Shown here piece after piece: positions 3,882 to 19,849 of a DNA stretch of 23,222 nt (positions are counted from its first letter, which is position 1; each line of letters opens with the position of its first letter). A program made the translations under genes and the position numbers. The DNA is from a virus. The stretch covers positions 1 to 23,222 of IMG/VR virus record IMGVR_UViG_3300036760_001532. One strand, written 5' to 3'. The notes under the pieces are model-generated. The model saw only the letters and a program-made list of their open reading frames with translations. It was not told the DNA's origin and searched no databases.

Positions 3882-5186
3882 TCAATCGAGCAGCACGAGG
3901 CCGCGCTCGGCGCGGGTGATGGCGGTGTAGAGCCAGCGGGCGCGATCCTGCGGCGTGCGCCCGAGCCCGTCATCGAACACCACGACGTTCTCGAATTGGG
4001 AGCCCTGCGACTTGTGACAGGTGATGGCCCAGCCCCAGACGCACTCGATCAGGGTGCGCTTCTTATGATGGTCGCGCCGGTCTCGATCAGGATCGGGCAA
4101 GAGATGATCGTCGAAGTGGCCGCGATAGATGCGGAAGCGCTCGCGCTTGCCGTTGGTCTCGCCGCCAACCTTGTGCCCATCCTCGGTGGTGATCGCGGCC
4201 TTGAAGGCGATCTCGTCGCCGTCCTCCTCGATCTCGTCGAGGGTGACGAACATGCCGTTGACCAGGCCGATGTCGTTGCGATTGCGCAGACAGATCAGCT
4301 TCTCGCCGGCCCCGGTCGGATAGGAAGCAGCAAAGCCTGCGGCCTGCTTCATGGCAAGGTTGAGCTGCATGCGCGTGGCGTTGCGCCCACAGATCACCTG
4401 GCCGGCCCGAAGCAGGCCCGACGCGTCGACATCAGACCGGCGCATCTTCCAGACGAATTCATCGTGCTCGCCGTAGGGAATTGATTTCCCCTCGCGGGCC
4501 CAGGTCGCAAGGCGGATGATGGCGCTGTCACCGGCCTGCCGGTGCACCTCGGTCAAGAGCACGTCCGGCTTGTCGGTGTCGAAGGCGCCCTCGCCCTTGA
4601 CCGGCGGCAACTGGCCAGGATCGCCCAGCACGAGGGTCGGCTTGCCAAAGGCAAGGAGGTCGCGCGCCATCTCCGCGCCGACCATGGACACCTCGTCGAG
4701 CACCAGCAGCTTGGCATCACGCAGGACGGACTCGGTATTGAGCACGAAACGTGGTTTGTGCACGTCCTTCAGTCGCAACTCGAGAGAGCGCAGCCGCGAC
4801 TCCTCGAACAGGCGCTCGGCGACGCCGAGCGCCGGCAGCTTCGCCTGGATCTCGGCGACTTCGGCCTTGAGCTTCTCGATTTCCTGTGGGCTCGCCTCCG
4901 ACACACGATAGATGAGGGAATGGATCGTGGACGCGGGCGTACCCTTGCGCGTCATCACCAAGGCGGCCTTGCCGGTGAAGGCGGCATAGAGCACGTCGCC
5001 GATCTTCGATTCGGCTCCCGGCGTCGAGAGTCCCAGTTCCTCGATCGCATACTTGACGATCGTGCTCTTCCCGGCGCCGGCATAGCCGAACACGCGGCAG
5101 ACCTGCTGCTGCTTCGTGCGGTTCTCGAACCAGTCCTTGACCGTGGTGATCGCCGCGCGTTGGCTCTCGGAAAGCGTGATGGTCAT
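3882..5186 (-). CDS. RecD-like / Dda-like SF1B DNA helicase
   Basis: A 434-aa ATP-dependent 5'-3' type helicase of superfamily 1B. Motifs in order: Q-motif region LSESQRAAI (5-13); Walker A GYAGAGKST (34-42); motif Ia region YAAFTGKAAL (67-76); Walker B LVLDEVSMV (161-169); motif III GDPGQLPPV (188-196); motif IV TEVHRQ (212-217); and near the C-terminus TCHKSQGSQFENVVV and WLYTAITRA (motifs V/VI, UvrD_C_2-like). A charged helical insertion at ~97-145 separates motifs Ia and II and may form the coiled-coil pin region. The start ATG overlaps the stop of the Cas4-like nuclease gene (ATGA at 5183-5186), which suggests the two proteins are made together and may act as a helicase-nuclease pair, as RecB-type nucleases do with RecD-type helicases. 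The likely role is unwinding during replication or recombination of the element. Confidence 0.93.
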   Translation of the reverse strand: MTITLSESQRAAITTVKDWFENRTKQQQVCRVFGYAGAGKSTIVKYAIEELGLSTPGAESKIGDVLYAAFTGKAALVMTRKGTPASTIHSLIYRVSEASPQEIEKLKAEVAEIQAKLPALGVAERLFEESRLRSLELRLKDVHKPRFVLNTESVLRDAKLLVLDEVSMVGAEMARDLLAFGKPTLVLGDPGQLPPVKGEGAFDTDKPDVLLTEVHRQAGDSAIIRLATWAREGKSIPYGEHDEFVWKMRRSDVDASGLLRAGQVICGRNATRMQLNLAMKQAAGFAASYPTGAGEKLICLRNRNDIGLVNGMFVTLDEIEEDGDEIAFKAAITTEDGHKVGGETNGKRERFRIYRGHFDDHLLPDPDRDRRDHHKKRTLIECVWGWAITCHKSQGSQFENVVVFDDGLGRTPQDRARWLYTAITRAERGLVLLD

Positions 5187-5968
5187 GCGTTGCCTCCCGG
5201 TGCGAGCGCGTGGCAGCGGATGCGGTACGGACAGAACGCGCAGATGAAGAAGTTAGGGTCGCCGGAGATGCGCGGCAGGAGCTCGCCAACGGCAGCGGCG
5301 CGGATCACGGCGACTGCCTTGTCTGAGAGCGCCTGGGCTGCCGGCGGATCGAAGGAGACGAGCTCGTAGCGGAGCGCCTGCGTGTCCTTGTCGAGCGCGA
5401 CGAACAGCGTGCGCTCTACGGCGAGGTACGCCATGTAGACCTGGACCTGCGCCCAGTAGATCGGCTTCGACGCTCTCACTCCGTGCTTGACGACGTCCTG
5501 CCAGGACGAGGACTTGAGCGCCTTGTGCTCGAACAGGGCCGGATACTCGATCCCGACATCTGGGCCGCCGACGATGACGCCATCGATGTGGCCGCCGAAT
5601 CGGCCGGCGGCGGCCGAGAAGCCGAACTGTTCGCCACTGCGCTTGTGTGTTCTCAGATCGAACCCGGCGAGCCGGAGCCAGCGGATCGTCATTTCCTCGA
5701 AGCGATGGCCGGCTTCGAAAATGCGCAGCATGCGCCCGGAAAAATCGGCGCCGCCATCGACCGGGACCTGCATCAGCTCGTAGCAGAGCCGGCGCGCGCA
5801 CGGTTCGCCGATGCGGGACGCGCCGAGATAATCGCGCGCAGGCATGACGGCACGCTCTGCCGTGAGCGCGCCGTCAACGAGGGCGTCAATGCGCTCGCCG
5901 ATCGGCGGCGGCGCGGGGGCGCGGCCGTATATGAATTCCGAGCCGTGGTTGAGGTCGACGATATCCAT
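5183..5968 (-). CDS. Cas4/RecB-like PD-(D/E)XK exonuclease with Fe-S cysteines
   Basis: A 261-aa nuclease. I chose the ATG at 5968, which has TTGAGG just upstream; an in-frame TTG at 5980 is less likely. The PD-(D/E)XK core is visible: a helix with AGHRFEEM (His87, Glu91), GGHIDGVIV with Asp129, FEHKALK giving Glu147-x-Lys149, and the motif QVQVY (Gln174 onward). Cysteines at 57 and/or 62 together with the C-terminal CAFCPYRIRC (Cys243, 246, 252) match the 4Fe-4S-binding layout of Cas4 and AddB-type nucleases. No CRISPR array or other cas gene is nearby, so this is a stand-alone phage version for DNA end processing rather than CRISPR adaptation. It precedes the RecD-like helicase with an ATGA overlap and follows the DUF6511 gene closely. 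Confidence 0.88.
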   Translation of the reverse strand: MDIVDLNHGSEFIYGRAPAPPPIGERIDALVDGALTAERAVMPARDYLGASRIGEPCARRLCYELMQVPVDGGADFSGRMLRIFEAGHRFEEMTIRWLRLAGFDLRTHKRSGEQFGFSAAAGRFGGHIDGVIVGGPDVGIEYPALFEHKALKSSSWQDVVKHGVRASKPIYWAQVQVYMAYLAVERTLFVALDKDTQALRYELVSFDPPAAQALSDKAVAVIRAAAVGELLPRISGDPNFFICAFCPYRIRCHALAPGGNA

Positions 5969-5976
5969 GACCGGCC

Positions 5977-6321
5977 TCAAAATGGAATGTCGTCGTTGAG
6001 CGTTTCGCGGCGCATGGCTTCCTGGAAGCCGTCGATGCAGGCCTCGATGAGGCGATCGATCTCTTCAGGCGTGCGGTCGTGGAACGGCGTCATCAGCCCG
6101 AGCTCGGTCAGCACCTCCGCAAAATTGCGCCGCACCGCCTTGATCGCCTGTATCTCCAACTCGGTCTTGTCGATCACGCCGTGGTTCCTCTTGGCGATGG
6201 CGGCGCCGGCGTTGAGGCAGCGCAGCGAGCAGAAGGGATAAGTCGGGTAGCGGTCGGGGCGCAGCTGGTGGGTGTAGTAGAAGCCGCGAGCTTCGCGGCT
6301 GCAGAGGGTGCAGGCTCTCAA
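5977..6321 (-). CDS. DUF6511-like zinc-ribbon phage protein, TTG start
   Basis: The frame is open to 6492, but conserved sequence only begins near residue 58 of that frame, and the upstream part overlaps the 77-aa gene. The natural start is a TTG at 6321 whose last two bases belong to the TGA of the upstream gene (TTGA overlap), giving 114 aa. The protein has a four-cysteine zinc ribbon (CTLC at 4-7, FCSLRC with Cys31 and Cys35) around a conserved YPTYPFCS segment, then VIDKTELEIQAIKAVRRNFAEVL and an acidic C-terminus ending in DDIPF. This matches my memory of DUF6511 proteins in prophages. Its function is unknown; the zinc ribbon suggests nucleic-acid or protein binding. The non-ATG start makes the N-terminus the least certain part. 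Confidence 0.72.
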   Translation of the reverse strand: MRACTLCSREARGFYYTHQLRPDRYPTYPFCSLRCLNAGAAIAKRNHGVIDKTELEIQAIKAVRRNFAEVLTELGLMTPFHDRTPEEIDRLIEACIDGFQEAMRRETLNDDIPF

Positions 6322-6569: not shown

Positions 6570-7301
6570 AGCCGGACCCGCCGGCTTTGCTGCCGGTGCG
6601 CCGGCGCCGGATGACGGTTGCGACCAGGCGGGCGCGCCGGACGTCTGCGGTGATCGCGGTTGCGCGGCAGCCGGCTGCCCGCCCGGTCCAGTGGCCTGCG
6701 TCCAGGCGGGTTGCCCGGCAGCGGCTTTGTTGCCGGCCCCGCGCGAGCGGCTTGGGCTCGCCGGCACGTCCTTGCCGTCCATCACGAGCTTCCATTCCTT
6801 CTCGGCCGGCAGCACCACGCGGTCGAGGCGGTTCTGGTCGCCGTAGCGGGAGTCCTCGCTGGCCTCGATCCTGATCTTGGCGACGAAGGTGATGCCCGAG
6901 AGATCGGCAAGTCCGCGCAGGACGCGTTTCTGTTTCGCCACCTCGCTCATGTCCTGCGGATCGAGGCCGAGCGCACTGTCGATCATGGCGCGGAAGCTGC
7001 TCTTCGAAATCTTCCAAGCGATCGAGACGCCGTTCTCGTCGACCTTGCCGCCCTGAACGGTGAACATCTGCCAGAACTTGCGCTTGGCATGCGGTCCCTC
7101 CGCCACCGTGAACTCGCAGTCGAGCATCCGCACGTCGCTGGTGGGGTCCTTGGGCGCCTTGAGCAGGGCTTGGTCGATTTCGCTTTGGCCGTCGATCCCG
7201 CCCGGGCGGATGATCATGGTCACCTTGGCGAAGGTGCCGTCGGGAATAAGTTCGCCGGTCTTCTGCGGCTCGGCGTCGTTCATGTCGAACATGGTGGTCA
7301 T
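6555..7301 (-). CDS. DUF669-like phage protein, probable ssDNA-associated accessory factor
   Basis: A 248-aa protein. Residues ~1-180 form a folded domain with an order typical of phage DUF669 proteins: a short acidic start (MFDMNDAEPQK), LIPDGTFAKVTM, a CEFTVAEGPHAKRKFWQMFTV strand pair, a helical KSSFRAMIDSALGLDP segment, and ITFVAKIRIE. Residues ~180-240 are a Pro/Ala/Gly/Ser-rich disordered linker, and the protein ends with PAWLNG. A folded domain plus flexible tail and conserved tip recalls single-stranded DNA-binding proteins, but no OB-fold can be shown from sequence alone. DUF669 genes usually sit beside recombinase ATPases, as here: the ATG overlaps the TGA of the RecA-like ATPase (ATGA at 7298-7301). 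Confidence 0.72.
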   Translation of the reverse strand: MTTMFDMNDAEPQKTGELIPDGTFAKVTMIIRPGGIDGQSEIDQALLKAPKDPTSDVRMLDCEFTVAEGPHAKRKFWQMFTVQGGKVDENGVSIAWKISKSSFRAMIDSALGLDPQDMSEVAKQKRVLRGLADLSGITFVAKIRIEASEDSRYGDQNRLDRVVLPAEKEWKLVMDGKDVPASPSRSRGAGNKAAAGQPAWTQATGPGGQPAAAQPRSPQTSGAPAWSQPSSGAGAPAAKPAGPAWLNG

Positions 7302-8131
7302 CCTCTGCTGGTCTGGTTGATCTTGCGGAGCAGCGCGCCGAGGTCGGGCGGCTCGGTGATGTCGAGGCGGCCGGAGCGATCCTTGCCCGGCAGGCCGAAG
7401 GGATTGGCCGACTGGCAGACGAGGCGGCGCACCTCGCCGCGATCGGGCTCGTGACGCCAGGTGTCGCCATCGGGCGCGAACCGGCTCATGGAGATCACCT
7501 GGTCGACGATGCCGGGGAGTTCGCGGGCGGCCTTGCCACCCTCCATCTGCGGCTGCCAGGTGACGCGGTTGAACTCGTCGGTGACGCGGTCCAGGATCCC
7601 GACGAAGATCACGGTGCGGCCCGGCACGTGTTGCAGGTGCTTCAGGAGTCCGATGGTTTCGCGCGCCAGCAGGCCGTAGGCGCCGCGGGTGTCAGGCTTG
7701 CCGGTCCGTTCGGATTGTGCTTCCGGCCGGGTCTTCGCCCAGGCCATGGCCAGGCGCGTGAGGTCGGTGATGGAGTCCACGAAGATGATGCGCTTGCCCG
7801 CGATCATGCGGACGAGATCGGGATAGGTGTCGCCGAGATGCCGGTAGTGGCTTTCGCAGAAGAAGGTCTTCTCATCGGCTGCCGGATCGACGCCGCCGAC
7901 GAGGCAGGCGACGTCGAGAGCATCGGCGAAGCTGCGCACCGGGATGCTGTCGCCGGGCCAGTCCTGGACCGATTTCATGCCGGCCTCGAGATCGATGCAG
8001 AGCGTCTCCGCCGGCGGCAGGGTCTTGAGCAGAGATGTTTTTCCAACACCAGAAGGCCCGAAGATCGCCATCGTGGTCTTGGTGTGGGCCTCGGCGAGTC
8101 TCTGATCGGCCGTGATGATGCGCAGTGCCAT
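7298..8131 (-). CDS. RecA-like AAA ATPase (AAA_24 / Sak4-type phage recombinase)
   Basis: A 277-aa single-domain P-loop ATPase. Walker A is GPSGVGKT (25-32), followed by LCIDLEAG (44-51), and Walker B is IIFVDS (115-120). A later TVIFVGILDRV strand and LPGIVDQVISM segment complete a RecA-like core; there is no lid or DnaB-type domain. This matches the phage AAA_24 family, which includes Sak4-type single-strand annealing/recombination ATPases. These promote recombination together with an SSB, which fits the DUF669-like gene directly downstream and the Cas4-like nuclease and RecD-like helicase further on. The start ATG shares one base with the stop of the 98-aa gene (TGATG), and the end overlaps the next gene by ATGA. 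Confidence 0.85.
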   Translation of the reverse strand: MALRIITADQRLAEAHTKTTMAIFGPSGVGKTSLLKTLPPAETLCIDLEAGMKSVQDWPGDSIPVRSFADALDVACLVGGVDPAADEKTFFCESHYRHLGDTYPDLVRMIAGKRIIFVDSITDLTRLAMAWAKTRPEAQSERTGKPDTRGAYGLLARETIGLLKHLQHVPGRTVIFVGILDRVTDEFNRVTWQPQMEGGKAARELPGIVDQVISMSRFAPDGDTWRHEPDRGEVRRLVCQSANPFGLPGKDRSGRLDITEPPDLGALLRKINQTSRG

Positions 8132-8861: not shown

Positions 8862-9437
8862 TCACGCGGCCCTCAGGCCGACGGCGAGCAAAGCGAGACG
8901 GATGTCCTTCACGCGGCGATAGAGGCTGCTCCGTGCCCCACGGCCGCCTCCCGCAAGCCGATCGACGGTCGTCCGGGAGAGCGCCGCGCAGAGGGCGCCG
9001 TCGTTCGGATCGAGGGTCCCAAGGCCACGCGCGACATCGAGCCGGCGCTCGACCTCGGCAAAAGCATCGACCGGCTGACCGAGGTGGGCTGCGAGGCCGT
9101 CCTCTTCGGCAACGAGATCGCCGCGCGTGGCGCCGTCACTATTGGGCAAGGTCTCGTCGAGCGACGCCGGCGCGGCGCCAAAGAGCCGGCGGTCGCGTTT
9201 CACTTTGTGCGCGATACGGGTCGCCCTGTTCGCCATGACAATACCGGCGAACGCGCCGAGCGAACCGCGCTCGGGATCGAAGGCGGAGAGACGAGCAAAC
9301 AGGTCGAGAAAGAACTCCTGACGGAGGTCGGCGAGATCGTCGTAGGGAAGACGGAGTTTCCGGATCAGCCGGCGAGCCGCAATATCGGCTTCATGCTGGA
9401 TGATCTGGAGAGAGGCAGGGGTGAGTCGGGTCGTCAT
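8862..9437 (-). CDS. Phage-type RNA polymerase sigma factor (sigma-70 region 2-like)
   Basis: A 191-aa protein. Residues ~15-85 look like sigma-70 region 2: DIAARRLIRKLRLPYDDLADLRQ with an acidic turn, FFLDLFARLSAFDPERGSLGAFAGIVMANRA (the Phe-Asp-Pro-x-Arg-Gly-Ser signature), and a basic IAHKVKRDRRL tail. The linker ~90-140 is acidic, as in ECF-like factors. The C-terminus (~145-188) has helices LCAALSRTTVDRLAGGG and SSLYRRVKDIRLALLA, which fit a diverged region 4 HTH. It is the first gene of the minus-strand operon, preceded by a 122-bp gap carrying four 11-bp direct repeats. It could direct polymerase to promoters of the element; target promoters are not evident. Confidence 0.78.
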   Translation of the reverse strand: MTTRLTPASLQIIQHEADIAARRLIRKLRLPYDDLADLRQEFFLDLFARLSAFDPERGSLGAFAGIVMANRATRIAHKVKRDRRLFGAAPASLDETLPNSDGATRGDLVAEEDGLAAHLGQPVDAFAEVERRLDVARGLGTLDPNDGALCAALSRTTVDRLAGGGRGARSSLYRRVKDIRLALLAVGLRAA

Positions 9438-9496: not shown

Positions 9497-9534
9497 AACC
9501 TGTCCCGAACCTCTCCTGAACCTCTCTTGAAGCT
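9497..9534. promoter_or_regulatory. Four direct repeats at exact 11-bp spacing: candidate operator before the sigma gene
   Basis: AACCT occurs at 9497, 9508 and 9519, with a degenerate AAGCT at 9530, all exactly 11 bp apart; the following bases are also partly repeated (CTCTCCTG, CTCTCTTG). Read toward the sigma gene the unit is AGGTT. The repeats lie 60 bp before the sigma start and 25 bp after the stop of the winged-helix protein. OmpR/PhoB-type proteins bind tandem direct repeats one helical turn apart, so this is a good candidate binding site for that neighbour. No clear -35/-10 pair is visible nearby. Confidence 0.6.
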
Positions 9535-9559: not shown

Positions 9560-10549
9560 TCAGATGACTCGTGCCGCGTCCGGCGCAAGCATGAGCTGAT
9601 AGCCGACGCGACGCGTCATTTTGATGAGGGCTTTTGCTGCGTTCGGCGAGAGCCGGCCGGCCTTGCGCAGCGCTGACCTTAATCGGCTGATTGTCTTTTC
9701 AATCTGTTCTTCGTTGGTGTCCTTGTTACCGGTAATTTCGCGAATCGTCTCGGAGATTGAACTCCGCGGCACGATGCCGTTCTGGTCGGTAAGCTCATTT
9801 GCAAGGAGGACAAGCACGGCAAAGTCGCGGCGCGTCAGTTTGACCTCGCTTCCGTCGAACCGAGCCCGATGCCCTTGAGTATCGACAGTGAGCCGTTCTG
9901 TCTCGGACGGAGCGGCTGCCACCCGGATGGCCGGAATCGATATTGCAAAAGGGTGCTGATCGTCGCCGGTCAGAATGTGTTCTATCGCGACGACAGCGAT
10001 CTGATCTGCCGACAGGCGCTTCAGAATGTCGCTCGTCAGGTTGCGTTCGGTGGGCGTCAGAATGGTCACCGGGGCGCCTGATGCACGTCCCTTGAGCGCA
10101 AGCGCGGTTTCGCCAGCATTGCGCGCGTTGAGGCCTCGGACGACATAGAATTCACGCCGGCGGCTGCCGCGCCCCAGCGCGCCAAGCCACAGGGTTCTCG
10201 ATGAGATACTTTCGACTCGCGGCCCCTCGAAGCGGTTGGCGCCACGAAACTGATGGCACAGCGCAGCAAAATCGATGTCGTACTGCTGAGTCGCGCGTGC
10301 CGAAACCAGAACCGTCTCGTCCTCGCCATCGAGACTAACGGCTGCAACGTGCTCGCCGACACGCGCGAGTACAATGGTGCCGAGGTCGGACGACAACGCA
10401 CGCTCGATCAAAATCCCAAGCCGCTCGAATTGGCGAACCAACGCCTGAGAAAATCCAGCAAGGTCGTCGCCATCGACGCAGGCGATCGGATGCCGATCAC
10501 TCCGCCGCAACAGCAGTCGGCATAAAGCCGCGTGAGAGCCGGATGCCAT
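9560..10549 (-). CDS. Transcription regulator with C-terminal OmpR/PhoB-type winged helix, unknown N-terminal domain
   Basis: A 329-aa protein. Residues ~219-320 form an OmpR/PhoB-type winged helix: LTVDTQGHRARFDGSEVKLT (first beta-sheet), RDFAVLVLLANE (helix 1), ISETIREITG (helix 2), EEQIEKTISRLRSALRKAG (recognition helix) and a VGYQL wing. The N-terminal ~210 residues are not a receiver domain (no phospho-Asp pattern) and I do not recognise them. Residues ~132-192 alternate strands and helices (REFYVVRGL, APVTILTP, LTSDILKRLSAD, IAVVAIE), which could be a Rossmann-like sensor. The ATG at 10549 overlaps the 420-aa gene by 53 bp; a start near its end (TTG at 10510) is possible. With the 11-bp repeats just downstream, it is the likely switch for the sigma gene. 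Confidence 0.75.
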   Translation of the reverse strand: MASGSHAALCRLLLRRSDRHPIACVDGDDLAGFSQALVRQFERLGILIERALSSDLGTIVLARVGEHVAAVSLDGEDETVLVSARATQQYDIDFAALCHQFRGANRFEGPRVESISSRTLWLGALGRGSRRREFYVVRGLNARNAGETALALKGRASGAPVTILTPTERNLTSDILKRLSADQIAVVAIEHILTGDDQHPFAISIPAIRVAAAPSETERLTVDTQGHRARFDGSEVKLTRRDFAVLVLLANELTDQNGIVPRSSISETIREITGNKDTNEEQIEKTISRLRSALRKAGRLSPNAAKALIKMTRRVGYQLMLAPDAARVI

Positions 10550-11759
10550 TGCGTTCCAGATGCTCCATGATCTGCTTCTCGAACGAATGATCGCGGAAGC
10601 TGGCCACGTTAGGCGGCTTGACCTTGACGATGACCCTTACTTCCTTGCCATCGACATTGAAACGGAACTCAAGCTTCACGTAACCAATCCGCAGATCTTC
10701 TAAATCGACGTCGGGTGCGAGATCGATCAAGCGCCCGATCGCATCCCGGCTGTCCCGCACTGTCATGGCCCAGGGAGAATATCGGGTCTTGCCGTCGACC
10801 TCGTGCTCGCCCTCGTCGACCTGAATTTCCTTCACGAGCACACACAGAACCTGAGAATCCCAGGCATGATGGAACCGAAATGCTGCACCCTGCTTGCGGA
10901 TAGGATCGAGGGTGTAAAGCCGTTGGCTGTCGTCGCCTGGGAAGAACTCGCAATCCCCAAGCATGTGTTCGGCAAATAGATCCCGCAGCTTTTTCCGCTC
11001 CACTGCGGCACTCGCGCTGATCCAAACCCGGCCAGAAGCCGCGTGATAGCGGATCGTGTCCTGTGCAATCTCGCGATAGGCCAGCGTTCGCTCGGCGCCA
11101 TTGTCCTCGACATTGGCGGTCATGGCATTCTTGCCGTGCAACACCAGGATCTGCACCTCGTCGCCTTCCGGATACCATCTCACGTCGCAGTAGCGTCCGA
11201 GATAGCGATTGGCAAAATATGCCGATGCCGCCGCCTTCAAGGCGGTGCGCGCCGTTTCATCATCATGACGAGACTCGACATTTTCTTGCACTCCAACCCA
11301 TTCGCTGGGCGAGCGAACCGACCAGAACGCATGAATGTCGAGCGTTTTATCGAACACCGCCCTGTGGTCGAGGTAGGCTCGCAGCGCAAGGTGGCGCGGC
11401 GTCAGGTGACGGCCGTCGCTTTCCTCAATCTCTTCCTTCGGTACCAGGTTCACGCCGGCAAGATCGGCCTGCTCTTGCAGCAGGCGCGCGCCGTTGGTGT
11501 CCGAAAGCACCATGATCTTGTGGAGCGCGTCCAGGAGTTCCGCCGGGAATCGCTCATCGGTTCTGCGGAAAAACTCGAAAATTGCTTCGCGCTTATCATT
11601 TTCGTCTGCCGGCAGAGCGTCCCAGTCGAACGCGATCATTGACGCGTATGGCTCCAGGAGGCGTTTGAGCAGATCGAGATCGACCGTCCTGGCGAACTCG
11701 CGATTGACGAATTTCTTGACGTTCTTGGCCATGTTAGCCGTCCATGAATCGTTATTCAT
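10497..11759 (-). CDS. Unrecognised 420-aa protein paired with winged-helix regulator
   Basis: I do not recognise this protein. It is 420 aa from the ATG at 11759; an ATG at 11732 (beginning MAKNVKKFVNREFA, with a GGA upstream) is equally plausible. Residues ~1-110 are helical and charged. Residues ~170-330 alternate strands and helices, with two tryptophan/tyrosine-rich patches (YCDVRWYPEGDEVQILVLHG, AFRFHHAWDSQVLCVLVKEI). The C-terminus has a strand pair with KLEFRFNVDGKEVRVIVKVKP and a helix (EKQIMEHLERNGI). No P-loop, nuclease motif, HTH, signal peptide or membrane segment is visible. It overlaps the regulator gene, so the two are probably co-expressed and may form a sensor-regulator or defence pair; that is inference from position. 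Confidence 0.7.
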   Translation of the reverse strand: MNNDSWTANMAKNVKKFVNREFARTVDLDLLKRLLEPYASMIAFDWDALPADENDKREAIFEFFRRTDERFPAELLDALHKIMVLSDTNGARLLQEQADLAGVNLVPKEEIEESDGRHLTPRHLALRAYLDHRAVFDKTLDIHAFWSVRSPSEWVGVQENVESRHDDETARTALKAAASAYFANRYLGRYCDVRWYPEGDEVQILVLHGKNAMTANVEDNGAERTLAYREIAQDTIRYHAASGRVWISASAAVERKKLRDLFAEHMLGDCEFFPGDDSQRLYTLDPIRKQGAAFRFHHAWDSQVLCVLVKEIQVDEGEHEVDGKTRYSPWAMTVRDSRDAIGRLIDLAPDVDLEDLRIGYVKLEFRFNVDGKEVRVIVKVKPPNVASFRDHSFEKQIMEHLERNGIRLSRGFMPTAVAAE

Positions 11760-11802
11760 GTTCCCTGTACGTTCTTAAGCCCGATTCGGCGGGGAGTCGA
11801 TT

Positions 11803-11818
11803 CAAAATCATCATTTTG
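11803..11818. promoter_or_regulatory. Inverted repeat in the divergent promoter region
   Basis: CAAAAT at 11803-11808 and ATTTTG at 11813-11818 form a perfect 6-bp inverted repeat with a 4-bp centre. It lies in the 121-bp region between the 420-aa gene (minus) and the recombinase cassette (plus), the only AT-rich part there. It could be an operator shared by both directions, or part of an attachment site. No convincing -35/-10 pair can be assigned. Confidence 0.4.
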
Positions 11819-11880
11819 GGACGGATTATGAGCCCGGTGAGTAGAGGCCTTGGGAGATTGCCCCTCATCCACGGCTTGCG

Positions 11881-12090
11881 ATGCAGCTCCCGAATCCAAT
11901 TGATCCAGAACGCCTTTCCGCCGCCGAGCGGCTCGACGAGATCGCCGAAATTCTGGCGGCCGGCCTCATGCGGTTGCGGGCTCGGAAGTCCACACCTTTA
12001 TCTGCCCACCCCGGAGAAAGTTCGCTCGACTGTCCCGCCCACCAACGCGGTCATGCCAACGCCCTCACCGATGATGGAGGCTTGGAGTGA
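11881..12090 (+). CDS. Small protein of the serine-recombinase cassette (69 aa)
   Basis: A 69-aa protein from the ATG at 11881. The N-terminal half (ERLSAAERLDEIAEILAAGL) is a clear amphipathic helix; the C-terminal half is polar and probably disordered. I remember near-identical small proteins ahead of DUF2924 and recombinase genes in Hyphomicrobiales, with no known function. The stop overlaps the GTG start of the DUF2924 gene (GTGA at 12087-12090). No good Shine-Dalgarno stands before the ATG (a GGGAG lies over 20 nt away), so the start is supported by sequence familiarity and coupling rather than by a ribosome site. It may be a partner of the recombinase or the DUF2924 protein. Confidence 0.72.
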   Translation: MQLPNPIDPERLSAAERLDEIAEILAAGLMRLRARKSTPLSAHPGESSLDCPAHQRGHANALTDDGGLE

Positions 12091-12533
12091 CCGATACCGT
12101 TCTGGCCCAGTTGGCCGCCCTGAAGATTGCTCCGATAGGCGCGCTCAAGCAGCGATGGCGCGATCTCTTCGAAACCGAACCGCCGCCCTATAACCGGCGC
12201 TTCCTCGAACACCGGCTGGCATACCGAATCCAGGAGCTGGCCTACGGCGGGCTCAAGCCCGAAACGCTGAAACGCCTTCACGATCTCGCCGAGGACCTCG
12301 ACGGTGGCGATCCGGCGCGGCGCCGGCAGCCGGCGAAGGACCGGCCGATCGCCGGCACGCGGCTCATTCGCGAATACGAGGGCGTGGAGCACTGCGTGAC
12401 GGTGCGCGATGAAGATTTCGAATATCAGGGCCGGCCTTACAAATCGCTGTCCGCGATTGCGCGCGCGATCACCGGCACGCGCTGGAACGGGCTTCTCTTT
12501 TTTGGCCTCAAAAACCGGCGGACACCGTCATGA
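12087..12533 (+). CDS. DUF2924 family protein
   Basis: A 148-aa protein with a GTG start overlapping the upstream stop. It has the typical DUF2924 order: an N-terminal helix (LAQLAALKIAPIGALKQRWR), then LFETEPPPYNRRFLEHRLAYRIQELAYGG, a Lys/Arg-rich linker, and a C-terminal part with GTRLIREYEGVEHCVTVRDEDFEYQ and YKSLSAIARAITGTRWNG. The C-terminal half resembles a small DNA-binding fold used in phage and transposon contexts (the RxYxG...Y.SLSAIA..ITG.rWNG pattern). DUF2924 genes almost always stand directly before large serine recombinases, as here (ATGA overlap at 12530-12533). It is probably an accessory or directionality factor for the recombinase, but that role is not established. Confidence 0.9.
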   Translation: MTDTVLAQLAALKIAPIGALKQRWRDLFETEPPPYNRRFLEHRLAYRIQELAYGGLKPETLKRLHDLAEDLDGGDPARRRQPAKDRPIAGTRLIREYEGVEHCVTVRDEDFEYQGRPYKSLSAIARAITGTRWNGLLFFGLKNRRTPS

Positions 12534-13843
12534 AGAAGCCGGTCGTCCGCAAGCTCCGCTGCGCGGTGTACACCCGCAAGTCCAGCGAGGAGGGATTGGA
12601 GCAGGAGTTCAACTCGCTCGACGCCCAGCGCGAGTCTTGCGAGGCCTATATCGCAAGTCAGAAAACGGAAGGCTGGCTGCTGGTGCCTGACCGCTATGAC
12701 GACGGCGGCATCTCGGGCGCGACCTTGGAGCGGCCGGCGCTACAGCGACTACTTGCCGACATCGAGGCCCACCGGGTCGACGTCGTCGTGGTTTACAAAA
12801 TCGATCGGCTGAGCCGCGCACTGATGGATTTTTCCAAGCTCGTCGAAATCTTCGATCGCAACAACGTCACCTTCGTCAGCGTCACCCAGTCGTTCAACAC
12901 CACCACCAGCATGGGGCGGCTGACGCTCAATATCCTGCTGTCCTTCGCGCAGTTCGAGCGCGAGGTCATCGGCGAGCGCATCCGCGACAAGTTCGCAGCC
13001 TCCCGCAAGAAGGGCATGTGGATGGGCGGCTTCGTCCCGCTCGGCTACGACGTCAAGGACCGCAAGCTGGTCATCAACAAAGCCGAGGCGACGACCGTTC
13101 GGATGATCTTCGAACGGTTCATCAAGATTGGTTCGGCCACCGAACTGGTGCGGAAGCTCCGGGCCGAAAGTGTCCGCGGCAAGCAGGGCAAGCTGGTCGA
13201 CAAGGGCTACGTCTACAAGCTGCTCAACAATCGGGTCTACGTGGGCGAGGCCGTTCACAAGGGCACGGCCTATCCCGGCGAGCACGAAGCCATTATCGAT
13301 CGCGCCCTATGGGATCGGGTGCACACCGTCCTCCGCGAAAGTCCGCGCAAACGCGCCGCACATACCCGGGCCCAGACGCCGGCCTTGCTCAAGGGTCTGA
13401 TCTTCGGGCCGACCGGCAGAGCGATGACCCCGGCGCATACGCGCAAGGACGGCAAGCTCTACCGTTATTATGTCTCGACCGACGTGCTCAAGCGCGATGC
13501 CGATTCGTGCACAGTGCGCCGTGTCCCTGCAGCCGAGATCGAGAGTGCCGTCGTCGATCAGCTGCGCGGCTTGCTGCGGGCGCCTGAGATTATCGTGCGC
13601 ACATGGCGCGCGGCGAAATCGATGGGCGACATCTCGGAGGCCGACGTGCGCGAGTCACTGGAGCGGCTCGATCCTCTTTGGAATGAACTCTTCCCTGCCG
13701 AGCAGGCCCGCATCGTGCAGCTGCTCGTGGAACGGGTCGATGTCAGCCTGGACGGCGCCGACATCCGGCTGCGGACCGAGGGGCTGACGAATCTGGTCAC
13801 GGAGCTTCGCGCGATCAGACCGGAACCACGGAGGGCGGCGTAA
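12530..13843 (+). CDS. Large serine recombinase (site-specific integrase)
   Basis: A 437-aa serine recombinase. The N-terminal resolvase domain (~8-150) has YTRKSS with the catalytic Ser (Ser18 by the Y-x-R-x-S pattern), LDAQRESC, and KIDRLSRALMDF. The recombinase domain (~155-270) has RKKGMWMGGFVPLGYDV and YKLLNNRVYVG. The C-terminal part (~285-430) corresponds to the zinc-ribbon and coiled-coil region. Here the usual CxxC pairs are absent (LLKGLIFGPTGRAMTP in place of the Cys pair), so zinc binding is unlikely, a known feature of this subfamily as I remember it. It breaks and joins DNA through a phosphoserine link and would integrate or excise the element. It overlaps both neighbours (ATGA and TAATG). 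Confidence 0.95.
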   Translation: MKKPVVRKLRCAVYTRKSSEEGLEQEFNSLDAQRESCEAYIASQKTEGWLLVPDRYDDGGISGATLERPALQRLLADIEAHRVDVVVVYKIDRLSRALMDFSKLVEIFDRNNVTFVSVTQSFNTTTSMGRLTLNILLSFAQFEREVIGERIRDKFAASRKKGMWMGGFVPLGYDVKDRKLVINKAEATTVRMIFERFIKIGSATELVRKLRAESVRGKQGKLVDKGYVYKLLNNRVYVGEAVHKGTAYPGEHEAIIDRALWDRVHTVLRESPRKRAAHTRAQTPALLKGLIFGPTGRAMTPAHTRKDGKLYRYYVSTDVLKRDADSCTVRRVPAAEIESAVVDQLRGLLRAPEIIVRTWRAAKSMGDISEADVRESLERLDPLWNELFPAEQARIVQLLVERVDVSLDGADIRLRTEGLTNLVTELRAIRPEPRRAA

Positions 13844-14250
13844 TGGCCGGACCCAATCCCACCGGCGATGTCCGCACCTTCACTGTGCGGGTGCCGATTT
13901 CGATCAGGAGGCGCGGCGGGCGGAGGCTTGTGCTCGCGCCTGATGGGACCGACGTCACAGTGGCACCCATCCACCGTCACATCGACAGCGCCATGGTCAA
14001 GGCGATTGCCCGGGCGTTCCGCTGGCGCGAAATGCTGGAGAACGGCACCCACGCGACCATCGCGGAGATCGCCGCCGCCGAGAAGATCAACGAGTCCTAC
14101 GTCGGTCGCGTGCTGCGGCTGACCCTGCTAGCGCCGGACATCGTCGAGGCGATCCTGAGTGGCCGGCAGCCGGCGGGCCTGCAGCTCGATCACCTGCTGA
14201 GCCGTTTTCCAATTGAGTGGCAGTCTCAACGTCAAGCTTTTAGCTGCTAA
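13843..14250 (+). CDS. ParB/KorB-like helix-turn-helix protein of the recombinase cassette
   Basis: A 135-aa protein whose ATG shares a base with the recombinase TAA (TAATG). The N-terminal part (~10-45) is strand-rich (VRTFTVRVPISIRRRGGRRLVLAP). Residues ~48-115 are helical with a KorB/ParB-type HTH: ARAFRWREMLENG, ATIAEIAAAEKINESYVGRVLRL (the HTH itself) and LLAPDIVEAILSG. The C-terminus (LQLDHLLSRFPIEWQSQR) is typical of these proteins as I remember them. It is often the last gene of such cassettes and probably binds DNA near the integration site or regulates the cassette. Its stop overlaps the stop of the convergent DUF262 gene by 4 bp. Confidence 0.85.
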   Translation: MAGPNPTGDVRTFTVRVPISIRRRGGRRLVLAPDGTDVTVAPIHRHIDSAMVKAIARAFRWREMLENGTHATIAEIAAAEKINESYVGRVLRLTLLAPDIVEAILSGRQPAGLQLDHLLSRFPIEWQSQRQAFSC

Positions 14251-15995
14251 GCGCCTTCATTGGGCCAATTCCGCCCTTCTGCCAATGCCTTGAGTGAATT
14301 TCGAACCATCTCCGCTCTGGCGCGCATGAAGGTCTCGTAATCGTTGCGGATTTTCTTCGCGCGGTCCTCGGGCGACTTGATCTCGAAATACCCGCCGACA
14401 TTCAGTTCATCGAACGGTACAATATGTGAGCGCAATCGGTCACGGACTACGGCTTCTCCGAGATCGGCGCGATCAATCCGTTCTTTCAGGTATCGTAAAG
14501 GCTCTTTTGCAGAGATATTCCGATTGGTGTTCATTGTAATAAGAATGCAGTTCAAAGCTCGGCTGCTTTCCCGATCTGTCAGTCCTCCATCATCCCGGAG
14601 AAGAGCATCCGGAAATACGTGGTGATATTCGCGATTGGTGAGCCGTTGGCGTGTCGCCTGGTTGCCGTCAGCGATATCAAAGGCGCCCGCCTTGATTGAA
14701 GCGGCGAGCACCGCCCGGGCCAGTGTCTCTTTGCGTTTTGGCCAACCGGCTTGGATAAGCTCTTCGACCGAAGGAAGTGGATAATCGGTGTCGCTGAACA
14801 CTGGCACTACATTTCGAGCGCCCTTTCCGAGGAAGAAATCCCGCAGTGCACGAAAATCCTGAAGAGATCGCGTGGATGATGCGTTCTCATACCGAGAGGT
14901 GATCGAAGAGCGCCACACGTAAGATCGGATTGTTGCTCTGGCATTGCCATGCTCATCGAGCTTCTTTGGCAAGTATTTGTGCAAAGCCGCCAGAACCGGC
15001 ATGACGGTTACCGTTGGGAGTCGTTGGTCATCAAAGATGCACTCCTCCTCCAAGACCTGGACGGCCCAGTTCACCCCGTCGAAAATTTCGTCCCACGCAG
15101 CATCGACGTCCGAGAGATCGAGTTGAAAAAAGCTAGCCTGGGCGGGGGTTCGATCCGCGCGTAATGCGGCGGTCTGAAGCACGATTTGCTCAGGTGAAGC
15201 GTAGCACTCCAATGCAGGACATTTCTCCCGCAGGTCGATCATCAGGTCGTGCATCGACTTGCCGGTACGCGCTTCAAACTGCGCGACGATTATATCAAAG
15301 GCATTGAGCGGGACCGCTGATGTATTCATTTTCACGAACACATCCAATGCGGTGGCCGGTTTCGTGCCGACGTCCAATACAAGCATGGGCAGATTAAAGC
15401 GCTTCATCTTTTCCTGCAGATCGCGAAGCGCATTCTCAAGGTCCCGGCTAGCTTGCAAGTTGCCGTCTACCGCTTGGTCACACCATTGCTGACGCCGGGC
15501 GGAAATATCCGAAGGCTGAAGAAGTGAAACAGGCGCAAGGCCGCGGGAGTACACCTGGACGGAATCATCAGCCCAGACCGGAAACTTACGACCGTCCTTA
15601 CTCAGCCATCGCTTGACACGAGTGATTCGGGACGGAGCAGTTTCATCCTCATCGGATTCGGGGGCCTTGAGCTGCACGAACAACGTCACGTCCTCGTACA
15701 AATCATGAAGGCTTCGCCACAATGCGGTGAGCCGTTGCTGTCCATCGAGGAGATGCTCGGTGCACCGTTCGACTGGAGCTGGAGCGCCAGCAAGTGGCCG
15801 TGTAATGAAGGGCTCCTTTTCCCCGATTTCAAGAACAAGCGTTGATCCGATGGGCAAGTCCCGGAGGATCGAGTCGATCAAGGCGGCAACATTCTCGTAA
15901 TCCCAAGCCTCGAACCGCTGGAATCGAGGGAGTCGCAGTTGTCCGCTGCGAATTCGGTTGAACCACGCCTCTACACTACGATCTCTTGCCTCCAT
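14247..15995 (-). CDS. DUF262/HNH nuclease (GmrSD-like restriction or defence protein)
   Basis: A 582-aa protein in one chain. The N-terminal DUF262 (ParB/Srx-like NTPase) domain has LRLPRFQRFEAWD (Gln26-Arg27, Trp31) and LLDGQQRLTAL (84-92), the signatures of this family. The middle is helical (~180-420). The C-terminal DUF1524-like HNH nuclease has REYHHVFPDALL (His458-His459) followed by ALNCILITMNTNRNISAKEP. DUF262-DUF1524 proteins include GmrSD-type modification-dependent endonucleases and other phage-defence proteins, so this is probably a defence nuclease that cuts foreign, perhaps modified, DNA. It is convergent with the recombinase cassette and divergent from the type III-like operon, with 209 bp between the latter two. 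Confidence 0.87.
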   Translation of the reverse strand: MEARDRSVEAWFNRIRSGQLRLPRFQRFEAWDYENVAALIDSILRDLPIGSTLVLEIGEKEPFITRPLAGAPAPVERCTEHLLDGQQRLTALWRSLHDLYEDVTLFVQLKAPESDEDETAPSRITRVKRWLSKDGRKFPVWADDSVQVYSRGLAPVSLLQPSDISARRQQWCDQAVDGNLQASRDLENALRDLQEKMKRFNLPMLVLDVGTKPATALDVFVKMNTSAVPLNAFDIIVAQFEARTGKSMHDLMIDLREKCPALECYASPEQIVLQTAALRADRTPAQASFFQLDLSDVDAAWDEIFDGVNWAVQVLEEECIFDDQRLPTVTVMPVLAALHKYLPKKLDEHGNARATIRSYVWRSSITSRYENASSTRSLQDFRALRDFFLGKGARNVVPVFSDTDYPLPSVEELIQAGWPKRKETLARAVLAASIKAGAFDIADGNQATRQRLTNREYHHVFPDALLRDDGGLTDRESSRALNCILITMNTNRNISAKEPLRYLKERIDRADLGEAVVRDRLRSHIVPFDELNVGGYFEIKSPEDRAKKIRNDYETFMRARAEMVRNSLKALAEGRNWPNEGA

Positions 15996-16095
15996 CCGCG
16001 CCCCCTATCGGCAGCTTGCGTCAATGGCACGAGCAATATCACAGACGGCTACCTGGAGTCGCGCACCACCAGATGCCCCCGAAGGTCGGGCGCAT

Positions 16096-16108
16096 CGTGT
16101 TCAACACG
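16096..16108. promoter_or_regulatory. Palindrome in the DUF262 / restriction operon divergent region
   Basis: CGTGTT at 16096-16101 and AACACG at 16103-16108 form a perfect inverted repeat around one base. It lies in the 209-bp region 15996-16204 between the DUF262 gene (minus) and the Phd/YefM gene (plus). It is a candidate operator for the antitoxin-like regulator. No -35/-10 pair is clear, and nothing else is recognisable in this region. Confidence 0.35.
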
Positions 16109-16204
16109 TGGACTTCGATGGACACGTAGTACCGCAACAATTTCCATTCGCTACCTATTCCCAGTCCACCGAGTTGGCTAAAGTAGCTCCAATCGGGAGA
16201 GCCC

Positions 16205-16408
16205 ATGCACCGCATGTCTGCGCGAGACGCCAAGAATGGCTTCGGTCGTCTAATCGATACCGCCCGCGCGAAGCCGGTCGCAATCGAAAAATACGGTCGC
16301 CCGGTAGTGATTGTGTTGGCGGTTGAAGAATACGAGCGCCTGACGATTCGGCGCTCTTCGGCGAGGAAATCGAGAGCCCTGAGCAAGTCGCGGGCGAAGG
16401 GAAAATGA
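16205..16408 (+). CDS. Phd/YefM family antitoxin without adjacent toxin
   Basis: A 67-aa protein from the ATG at 16205, with GGGAG ending 5 nt upstream; an in-frame ATG at 16214 is the alternative. The N-terminal Phd/YefM fold is clear: MSARDAKNGFGRLIDTAR (DNA-binding helix), KPVAIEKYGRPVVIVLAVEEYERL (strand and helix). The C-terminal ~20 residues are very basic (SARKSRALSKSRAKGK) rather than the usual toxin-neutralising tail. The next gene on the same strand is not a toxin but a type III-like methyltransferase, whose ATG overlaps this stop (ATGA at 16405-16408). Phd/YefM proteins repress their own operon, so this one may regulate the restriction-modification genes; that is inference. Confidence 0.88.
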   Translation: MHRMSARDAKNGFGRLIDTARAKPVAIEKYGRPVVIVLAVEEYERLTIRRSSARKSRALSKSRAKGK

Positions 16409-19400
16409 TTGCAATGGAAGAACTGAAGAAGCTCATTCTTGATCTAGTGCCGCCCGACGGTTCGACTATCGGCAATCAAAGCCTTCTCGGCGCGATCCGC
16501 GCACGTCTGCCCGAAGTTGAAGACAGCGACTATTTTGCCGCTCGTGACGCCTTGATAGATGCGGGCGAGTTGGACAAAGGTCGTGGCCGCGGCGGCTCTG
16601 TCTATCGCGTTGATGCTGATACGAAAGCTGCGGAGCAAACCGAGAGGTCTCCGGATAACGCCGAAGACGAGATTGAAAATGGCGAGAGCGGGGAGGAAGA
16701 GGACGAGGATGATGATGGCTTCGCGTTAACGATTCAGGACGCGCCCACTGCACGGGCTCAAATCGGAAATGCAAAGACGAAGAGGCGCGCCAAAGCCTCA
16801 GGTCCTGTTCAGGTGCTTAGCTATCGTCATCCCGACAAGCGTATGAACAACCCGGAAGTTGGCATGGTCCATCCGGAGAATGATCCGGACCAACCGAAGA
16901 GCCAATGGGCCTTCGATCCGCACATCGATCCAGCGCTTCAGTTCGACGCCAGTCGATCCATGATCGAGCAATTGATCGATGGCGCCATTGCCAGCAAGCA
17001 AAGTGATCGCGATCTTACGGCTGTGCTGAATAAGCTTGTTGACGAGGCGCTTTCGGCTGGAAGGGTCGACAAAGACATTTTTGTCGCACTCGTGCAGCGC
17101 GCCATCGAGGCCGACAGATCGGTTCATAACACCGACCGAATGCGCGACGCGCTTATTGAGTTAAAACAGCTTCAGAAACCCTACCTCAATTGGGCGGGCA
17201 AAGCGGAGAGAACTAGTTTCAAGGTCGATACTGTTTCGCTGCATGTGCATGAACGTATCGATCCGGCCAGTATCATTTCCGCCGTCCGCAAGAGGTTGAA
17301 GGGAGAAAAGGACGGGGGCGAACAGGCATTCCAGCCGGGACTGTTCGACGCCCCGTTCGAGAACTTGCCGCTGCGCCAAGCGTTGGATTTCTACAAGTAC
17401 GAAAAAAACTGGTCCAACCGACTGATCGCGGGCGATTCCTTGCTCGTTATGAACTCGCTTCTTCACAAGGAGAGCATGGCTGGGCAGGCACAGATGATAT
17501 ACATCGACCCGCCCTACGGCATCAAATACGGATCGAATTTCCAACCCTTTACCAACAAGCGTGAAGTGAAGGACGGCGCCGACGCCGACCTCACCCAAGA
17601 ACCCGAGACGATTAAAGCTTTCCGGGACACTTGGGAGCTTGGCATTCACTCCTACCTGACCTATCTGCGCGATCGTCTATTGTTAGCGAAGGAGCTGCTG
17701 CATGAGAGTGGCAGTGTGTTCGTACAGATCTCGGATGAAAACCTGCATCACGTTCGCGAGGTTCTCGATGAAATTTTTGGGCCAAACTCCTTCATTTCGT
17801 TGATCAGCTACTCAACCACCGGGGGCTTCTCATCGGCTGCCCTGAGCAGAACTGGCGACTATATTCTTTGGTATGCGAAAAACACCGACCACCTAAAGTT
17901 TAACCGTCTTTACATTGCAAAGGACCTCTTTGAGGCAGCGCGTGACGATTACGACCAAATTGAGCTCAACTCAGGACAGAGGAGAGCACTGACCAAAGAT
18001 GAAAAACGAGATCCGGCGTCAATTATGAACGCAGGCCGTTTGTTTACCGATGATAATCCCACCTCGCAGGGCGAAGGTGCTGCCACGACTGATCATGAGT
18101 ATCGTGGCATGATTTTCCACCCCGGAGAAGGTAATCATTGGAAGGCCCCAGTTCCGGATGGGATGCGCCGCATTTCTCGGGCCATTCGATTCCAAATCAC
18201 CCCAAAAGGAAAAGTTCGATACGTTAGATACTTCAGTGATTTCGATCAGAAGCCGGTAAACAATGCATGGTTTGACATTGCTGGGGCGGTTCAAGATCGA
18301 TCGGATCCAAAGATTTATGCAGTGCAAACCAGCAACAAGATCATCGAACGTTGCCTCTTGATGACGACAGACCCCGGCGATCTCGTGCTCGATCCGACAT
18401 GTGGCTCCGGGACCACAGCCTTCGTCGCCGAGAAATGGGGTAGGCGTTGGATAACCTGCGATACCTCGCGCGTCGCTGTTACACTAGCCAAACAGCGGCT
18501 GATGACATCGAGCTTCGACTATTTTGCTTTGCGTTATCCTCACGAGGGCTTGAAGGGAGGCTTTATCTATAAAACGGTGCCGCATGTCACCCTGAGATCA
18601 ATCGCCAATAATCCGGAGATCGACGACATCCACGATCGTATGTCGCCAACGATTGAGGGCGCGCTCGCCACTCTCAATGCCGCTTTGAGGACGACTTCGC
18701 CTTTTGTTCCCACTCAAGGCGTCCGCAAAGGCAAGAAGGTGGCGTTCACCAAGGGCGAAACGCTGCACAATTGGGAGGTGCCGTTTGATTGGCCGGAGGA
18801 ATGGCCGGCAGCGGCAAAGCCTGCATTCGAGGCATTTCACGTCGCGCGGCAGTCAATGCAACGCCAGATGGACATGTCCATCGCCGCGCATGCGGAACCG
18901 GAAACCCTTTACGACAAGCCGGAGCCTGATCTGAATAAGCTGCGGATCACTGGACCATTCTCGGTTGAAGCCGTGCCGAACCCGACTGTGCTTTCGCTTG
19001 ACGAGACTCAGCCCGCTGCGGAAGCAAGCGTCGCCATCGCTCGCTCCGGCGAAACCTCGCGCCAGACCCTATGGCGCGACGAACTCATGAAGACCGGCAT
19101 TCGAGGCAAGGGCGGGCGGATGCTCACCTTTGCCGAGATCGAGACACTTCCCGGACTGAAGCATCTTCATGCGAGCGGCGCCTTCGCGGAGACTGGTGAG
19201 CGGGTGGTGATCAGCTTCGGCCCCGAGCACGCCGCCCTCGAACAGCGGCAGGTGGAGCTAGCACTTTCCGAGGCGGAGAAGCTGCGGCCCGCACCGAAAT
19301 TCATCATCTTCTGTGCGTTCATTTTTGACCCCGAGGCCGCCAAGGACATCGACGAAGTGCGCTGGCCAGGCGTTACCCTGCTCAAAGCCCAGATGAATGC

Positions 19401-19839
19401 GGACCTATTGACGGACGATCTTAAGAAGGCGCGCTCCAGCAATCAGAGCTTTTGGCTGATGGGGCAGCCCGATGTTGATGTTCGCAAGCGGCCAGACGGG
19501 CTCTGGGAAGTAGAGGTGAATGGCTTTGATTACTTTGACCCGAAGGCCGGTGAGTTGGTCTCCGGCGGCAAGAGCAAGATCGCAATGTGGTCGCTCGATA
19601 TTGATTACGACCAACGCTCCTTGTTCCCGCATCAGGTGTTTTTCCCGATTGCCGGCAAGAAGGAGGGCTGGAACAGATTGAAAAAGAACATCAAAGCCGA
19701 GCTGGACGAGGATCTGATGGTGCAGTTTCACGGCACCGTCTCGCTGCCCTTCGCTTCTGGAGAGAACAAGCGGGTCGCGGTCAAGATCGTGGACGATCGG
19801 GGTATCGAGTCGCTGAAGATTGTCACGCTTGATGACTGA
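16405..19839 (+). CDS. Type III-like adenine DNA methyltransferase with N-terminal winged helix
   Basis: A 1144-aa protein, much longer than usual type III Mod subunits (about 550-700 aa). Residues ~5-70 read as a winged helix (GNQSLLGAIRARLPEV, ARDALIDAGELDKGRGRGGSV). Residues ~85-106 are an acidic linker (ENGESGEEEDEDDDGF). Residues ~110-330 are a helical region of unknown role. The methyltransferase core has IDPPYGIKYG (DPPY at 368-371, motif IV) before DPTCGSGTT (663-671, motif I), the beta-class order of N6-adenine type III enzymes, with the target-recognition region between. Residues ~720-1144 are an extra C-terminal part. It would methylate host DNA for the partner restriction enzyme. 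The ATG at 16405, with AAGGGA upstream, is preferred over 16414. Confidence 0.92.
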   Translation: MIAMEELKKLILDLVPPDGSTIGNQSLLGAIRARLPEVEDSDYFAARDALIDAGELDKGRGRGGSVYRVDADTKAAEQTERSPDNAEDEIENGESGEEEDEDDDGFALTIQDAPTARAQIGNAKTKRRAKASGPVQVLSYRHPDKRMNNPEVGMVHPENDPDQPKSQWAFDPHIDPALQFDASRSMIEQLIDGAIASKQSDRDLTAVLNKLVDEALSAGRVDKDIFVALVQRAIEADRSVHNTDRMRDALIELKQLQKPYLNWAGKAERTSFKVDTVSLHVHERIDPASIISAVRKRLKGEKDGGEQAFQPGLFDAPFENLPLRQALDFYKYEKNWSNRLIAGDSLLVMNSLLHKESMAGQAQMIYIDPPYGIKYGSNFQPFTNKREVKDGADADLTQEPETIKAFRDTWELGIHSYLTYLRDRLLLAKELLHESGSVFVQISDENLHHVREVLDEIFGPNSFISLISYSTTGGFSSAALSRTGDYILWYAKNTDHLKFNRLYIAKDLFEAARDDYDQIELNSGQRRALTKDEKRDPASIMNAGRLFTDDNPTSQGEGAATTDHEYRGMIFHPGEGNHWKAPVPDGMRRISRAIRFQITPKGKVRYVRYFSDFDQKPVNNAWFDIAGAVQDRSDPKIYAVQTSNKIIERCLLMTTDPGDLVLDPTCGSGTTAFVAEKWGRRWITCDTSRVAVTLAKQRLMTSSFDYFALRYPHEGLKGGFIYKTVPHVTLRSIANNPEIDDIHDRMSPTIEGALATLNAALRTTSPFVPTQGVRKGKKVAFTKGETLHNWEVPFDWPEEWPAAAKPAFEAFHVARQSMQRQMDMSIAAHAEPETLYDKPEPDLNKLRITGPFSVEAVPNPTVLSLDETQPAAEASVAIARSGETSRQTLWRDELMKTGIRGKGGRMLTFAEIETLPGLKHLHASGAFAETGERVVISFGPEHAALEQRQVELALSEAEKLRPAPKFIIFCAFIFDPEAAKDIDEVRWPGVTLLKAQMNADLLTDDLKKARSSNQSFWLMGQPDVDVRKRPDGLWEVEVNGFDYFDPKAGELVSGGKSKIAMWSLDIDYDQRSLFPHQVFFPIAGKKEGWNRLKKNIKAELDEDLMVQFHGTVSLPFASGENKRVAVKIVDDRGIESLKIVTLDD

Positions 19840-19849
19840 GAGGGCCCGA

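Follow-up and report, generated by a model that had tools for sequence, protein, structure and literature searches.

A conserved overlapping gene pair directly behind a LexA site in serine-integrase prophages, a candidate pro-lytic induction switch

The Tum protein of coliphage 186 is a LexA-controlled prophage inducer, with host LexA acting through Tum. Phage 186 has been cited as a case of a LexA-controlled prophage (PMC12700426), and GIL01 is another (PMC4551915). In phage lambda, RexA biases the phage toward lysis, and the 2024 RexA crystal paper assigned RexA, RdgC, IML3, and CHL4 to one DNA-binding fold (PMC11077077). Here we compare these systems with a gene pair, termed A and B, in the window, which is the whole stretch of 23,222 nt that was analyzed and comes from an IMG/VR record.

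The ORFs of A and B lie on the minus strand and overlap by 53 nt, and the pair adjoins an integrase cassette in a control-region position, all in agreement with a preliminary description of this DNA (Table 1). Its statement that neither A nor the N-terminal ~210 residues of B belong to a known family also held: searches of Pfam, NCBIfam, PADLOC, and PHROGs gave no credible match for the window copy of A and none for residues 1 to ~210 of the window copy of B.

Table 1 Coordinates of the A–B pair and of neighboring features in the window.
Feature	Position	Strand	Remarks
Cas4-type exonuclease	5183..5980	-	early region shared with the Sak4-like gene
Sak4-like annealing protein	7298..8131	-	first of the replication/recombination genes downstream of A–B
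Sigma-70 region-2-like (ECF-like) protein	8862..9437	-	co-evolves with A, rho 0.76
Gene B	9560..10549	-	329 aa; C-terminal OmpR-type winged helix at residues 233–319
Gene A	10497..11759	-	420-aa ORF; probable true start 11732 (411 aa)
SOS (LexA) box GTTCCCTGTACGTTC	11760..11774		GTTCN7GTTC; 28–43 nt upstream of the probable A start
Conserved block GAATCGACTC	11794..11803	-	upstream of the SOS box; possible -35 element of the A–B promoter
Conserved block TTGGGACGG..TGAGTAG	11816..11843	+	probable divergent promoter of the integrase cassette
o69, conserved 69-aa ORF	11881..12090	+	first gene of the integrase cassette
DUF2924 protein	12087..12533	+	PF11149, E 7e-52
Large serine recombinase (integrase)	12530..13843	+	Resolvase, Recombinase, and Zn_ribbon_recom matches
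o135, conserved 135-aa ORF	13843..14250	+	after the integrase

Gene A probably starts at M10 (MAKNVKKF..., position 11732) rather than at the ATG at 11759, because its homologues begin at MAK..KF. The ATG of M10 is preceded by a Shine-Dalgarno-like GGACGG, and the upstream ATG directly abuts the LexA box. In a comparison with a 73%-identical relative over 408 codons, 79, 58, and 210 changes fell on codon positions 1, 2, and 3, respectively, and this third-position excess shows that A is under purifying selection. A and B are both genuine genes. A was conserved at 105 distinct loci, and when 30 of its relatives were scanned with Pfam, no family was matched, RdgC included.

The predicted structure of A (AlphaFold2 with 30 relatives, pLDDT 83) showed an N-terminal domain made of helices and, behind it, two alpha/beta units. 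The only significant Foldseek matches of this model in the PDB were RdgC (2owl/2owy) and CENP-N/Chl4, with a probability of 1.00 and E values from 2e-5 to 5e-4 (2.3e-5 for RdgC), and some of the CENP-N/Chl4 alignments spanned 335–374 columns of A. Matches in BFVD were annotated phage RdgC proteins with TM-scores up to 0.49. Despite the probability of 1.00, the TM-scores against RdgC from the PDB were 0.3–0.43, and the fold matches were remote overall (TM-scores 0.2–0.49, rmsd about 7–13 Å). Following its helical domain, A thus probably has a DNA-binding fold like that of RdgC, RexA, and CENP-N, an assignment that is likely rather than certain because the global TM-scores are modest. Comparison by hhalign detected no sequence similarity of A to an RdgC alignment or to lambda RexA (probability 0.1% for each); kinship with either at the sequence level was therefore rejected, and A was filed neither as RdgC nor as RexA.

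The winged helix of B in the window matched Trans_reg_C (PF00486, E 1.1e-7), which Pfam also found in 18 of 34 B relatives. Those 34 relatives had no other credible family match, a receiver domain was not matched by Pfam in any B member (the window copy and the 34 relatives), and B did not match RexB or another membrane family. The predicted model (pLDDT 86) contained a clear winged helix and a remainder that matched nothing well; the structural matches were limited to winged helices of the OmpR type and, weakly, the EndoMS nuclease fold, with good alignment at the winged helix only. The alpha/beta domain of B is reminiscent of a PD-(D/E)XK core, with the weak EndoMS match, but showed no conserved catalytic motif. 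In most B homologues a Cys-rich, Zn-ribbon-like stretch with Cys pairs stands ahead of this domain; these cysteines are missing from the window copy and from locus L044. A ligand sensor of the CARF or WYL type, which had been suggested to precede the winged helix, was rejected: the sole CARF match of B (PADLOC CARF5, E 0.0016) covered the winged helix itself (residues 212–293), and the structure search of the B model returned no CARF, WYL, or receiver domain.

To judge by their sequences, A and B are one translational unit, sometimes a single fused protein, and co-evolve. We collected 105 distinct A proteins and left out six at contig ends, and 98 of the 99 scored proteins either were fused to their partner or were followed directly by an overlapping or adjacent ORF, one that matched the B profile or another large one, which addresses the earlier question of whether the pair is always adjacent. 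The single partnerless A, at L195 (G1018:C117), is a broken gene with stops and frame shifts beside a DUF2924–integrase cassette in a decaying prophage. There were five A–B fusions (L124–L128); a further locus scored as a fusion by the script (L077) is an extended ORF. Pairwise identities of A correlated closely with those of B (rho 0.95) and of the sigma-like protein (0.76), and far less with those of the integrase (0.29), the Sak4-like protein (0.19), and the exonuclease (0.08), and the median identity was 68% for the integrases and 29% for A. These correlations suggest that A–B, with the sigma-like gene, is a module that recombines relative to the integration and replication genes.

A near-identical copy (99%) was found in a Pseudolabrys MAG. 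There it stands at the head of the early region in a complete siphovirus-like prophage that has genes for a GpA terminase, gpD and gpE head proteins, a tape measure, GTA-like tail proteins, and a GH108 lysin. This prophage also carries an apparent mercury-resistance-like cargo between its primase and packaging genes (L121:12796-15699; G001:C2 62696-65599), with ORFs judged by eye as MerR-, MerT-, MerP-, and MerA-like. In profile searches, A turned up in 17 of the 397 genomes searched from the order, in 8 of 385 from the class, and in 22 of 299 from the phylum, and 78 loci came from IMG/VR. These counts include a few weak partial matches representing A–B fusions or fragments. A tblastn search of plasmid and phage record collections yielded no A relative. 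Among the loci examined, A–B was seen only in prophage-type elements, which bears on the second question raised earlier, whether the pair occurs outside prophages.

The usual layout consists of o135–integrase–DUF2924–o69, divergent from A–B–sigma-like–o113–o98–Sak4 and, further on, the Cas4 exonuclease and a helicase. At L135, A–B is on the operon opposite to the replication genes. In loci L114–L119 the arrangement differs: every gene points the same way, and the inverted repeat is a different one; upstream of A in L116–L119, the conserved inverted repeat AAGTGTAGTATACTTGCGTACACTT takes the place of the SOS box, and the cassette genes are co-oriented. DUF2924 is widespread without A–B, and it and the serine integrase co-vary (rho 0.70). 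In Wolbachia phage WO, too, a DUF2924 gene is reported to be followed directly by a recombinase (PMC10299305). We regard DUF2924 as a candidate accessory factor of the integrase. A as an obligatory partner of the DUF2924–integrase cassette was rejected, as 28 of 30 sampled DUF2924 loci from the class had no adjacent A. Past the integrase end of the window, positions 14247-22852 hold a defence-like block comprising a GmrSD-type protein, a type III methyltransferase, and a restriction helicase, and related MOD/RES genes recur beside the integrase end in L043, L044, L056–L060, L096, L101, and L124.

The motif GAACN7GAAC, which is the LexA box of alphaproteobacteria, was present just before A in 70 of the 105 distinct loci and, in nearly all window-type loci, lay about 30–60 nt ahead of the A start codon. 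It was nearly always the sole such box in the locus; the density elsewhere in the same loci gives a chance expectation of ~0.003 per 200 nt, and 0.4% of shuffled regions contained one. GTTCN7GTTC is the LexA box of Caulobacter (PMC12700426, PMC9578287). In L042, the one distinct sequence that stands for two close relatives of the window copy, the box is degenerate. A second GAACN7GAAC (GAACCTCTCCTGAAC) is located at 9507-9521, between B and the sigma-like gene; it is shared with the near-identical L007 and not with L042 or L044.

In 16 of the 105 loci, the gene that directly precedes A, in the same orientation, codes for a LexA-type repressor, and the SOS box is absent from all 16. Pfam confirmed LexA_DNA_bind and Peptidase_S24 domains in the gene upstream of A at L135, and a CCTAAT..ATTAGG-like palindrome, read by eye, often precedes the lexA-type gene in such loci. 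Two loci have XRE-type and ImmA/IrrE-type genes at the switch (both domains confirmed in L129), and 17 have neither an SOS box nor a LexA or XRE gene. With an SOS box, a LexA-type gene of its own, or XRE/ImmA depending on the lineage, the pair recurs at the induction node with interchangeable repressors. A simple scan for direct and inverted repeats that might serve as B operators returned none that was consistent, only shared blocks. Ten prophage proteins of the Pseudolabrys copy were scanned, and none was recognized as a CI/Cro-type repressor. The principal brake may therefore be host LexA, as in the LexA-controlled prophage GIL01 (PMC4551915) and, through Tum, in phage 186; the repressor of window-type phages could also be an unrecognized gene elsewhere.

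On the evidence of gene order and upstream motifs, the A–B pair is placed at the induction switch of a widespread prophage family, directly behind a LexA site. We consider it on balance probable, with modest confidence, that A–B is an SOS-induced, pro-lytic module of the lysis–lysogeny switch of serine-integrase temperate phages. In a window-type lysogen, host LexA would hold A–B and the downstream sigma-like and replication genes off, and DNA damage would remove LexA and allow A–B to be made. A putative A–B complex would then bind phage DNA, with B providing sequence specificity and A serving as a clamp on dsDNA, and once bound would push transcription and replication toward the lytic state. 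A LexA box on A–B predicts silence in the lysogen and expression upon DNA damage, and such SOS-gated expression fits a pro-lytic factor and speaks against an immunity repressor or a constitutive exclusion system. Most likely, A–B helps to turn the dormant virus on; DNA binding by the pair, its direction of action, and its targets are putative. Of the two roles first proposed for the pair, lysogeny control or defence, the former was strengthened by the control-region position and the SOS box; the latter gained no positive evidence, as the pair was seen only in prophage-type elements and its expression is predicted to be SOS-gated.

The predicted RexA-type fold of A, and a gene order of LexA/CI-type repressor, A, and B that recalls cI–rexA–rexB (PMC11077077), would also suit a Rex-like superinfection-exclusion pair expressed from the lysogen for defence. 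We regard this as unlikely, because B is a predicted DNA-binding regulator, unlike the membrane protein RexB, the LexA box in most loci predicts that the pair is off in the lysogen, and A–B was not seen outside prophage-type elements. That the pair is itself the prophage immunity repressor appears very improbable. Its control-region position, the winged helix, and the failure to find a CI/Cro-type repressor among the scanned prophage proteins agree with such a role, but the LexA box predicts a pair that is off in the lysogen and on at induction, the opposite of what immunity needs, and in other lineages a dedicated repressor, of LexA or XRE type, is present in addition.

Two further readings tie A to neighboring genes, and we give neither much credence. 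If A were an RdgC-like recombination or replication helper of the Sak4 and Cas4-exonuclease genes, with B merely its regulator, the predicted RdgC fold and the usual position of A upstream of these genes would be accounted for; however, A co-varies with B and hardly with Sak4 or the exonuclease, the fusions bind it to the winged-helix protein, and at L135 the pair and the replication genes are on opposite operons. It is likewise doubtful that A, with B, is a recombination directionality factor enabling excision of the serine-integrase prophage. A adjoins the integrase divergently, and its expression is predicted to come on with the lytic cycle, but A and the integrase are poorly correlated despite the conservation of the integrases, and nearly all sampled DUF2924 loci from the class lack A beside the cassette.

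The SOS-induced pro-lytic switch remains our preferred reading, and A was found in 22 of the 299 sampled phylum genomes, yet A and most of B are without a family model. If A–B is a switch module shared by a large group of alphaproteobacterial and related prophages, their induction could be predicted from whether the sequence has an SOS box, a LexA gene of the phage's own, or XRE/ImmA. More tentatively, and short of what we would call probable, A–B with the sigma-like gene may be an undescribed portable switch that joins a RexA/RdgC/CENP-N-fold protein to a winged-helix partner, is wired to host LexA, a phage LexA-type repressor, or XRE/ImmA, works independently of CI/Cro, and represents a family linking RexA, RdgC, and CENP-N/Chl4 whose job is phage induction. 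For this fold, whose part in the lambda switch is under debate, the pair would supply an independent branch, and the natural A–B fusion would offer a testable object.

Compared with known systems, A shares its predicted fold class and control-region position with lambda RexA, and the order of cI–rexA–rexB is paralleled by LexA/CI-type repressor–A–partner in 16 of the 105 loci, but not in the window. Unlike RexA, to which it has no sequence similarity, A is longer and has an extra helical N-terminal domain; RexB is a membrane protein whereas B is a winged-helix protein, and most A–B loci, in contrast to cI–rexA–rexB, are connected to host LexA through an SOS box. Bacterial and phage RdgC proteins are the best structural match of A (PDB 2owl/2owy and several phage RdgC proteins), but there is no profile similarity, and A has a fixed partner, B, and a prophage switch setting. 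With CENP-N/Chl4, a centromere protein of the eukaryotic inner kinetochore, A is related only at the level of the fold. B has the C-terminal Trans_reg_C winged helix of the OmpR/PhoB response regulators, but is without their receiver domain and has an unrelated N-terminal part. Like tum of coliphage 186, A is an early prophage gene directly under host LexA, with an SOS box before it, whereas the two proteins of A–B are of DNA-binding type and are not known to be related to Tum, and an anti-repressor action of the pair is putative. The action proposed for A–B would resemble the bias toward lysis known for RexA and, in phage 186, the LexA-controlled Tum.
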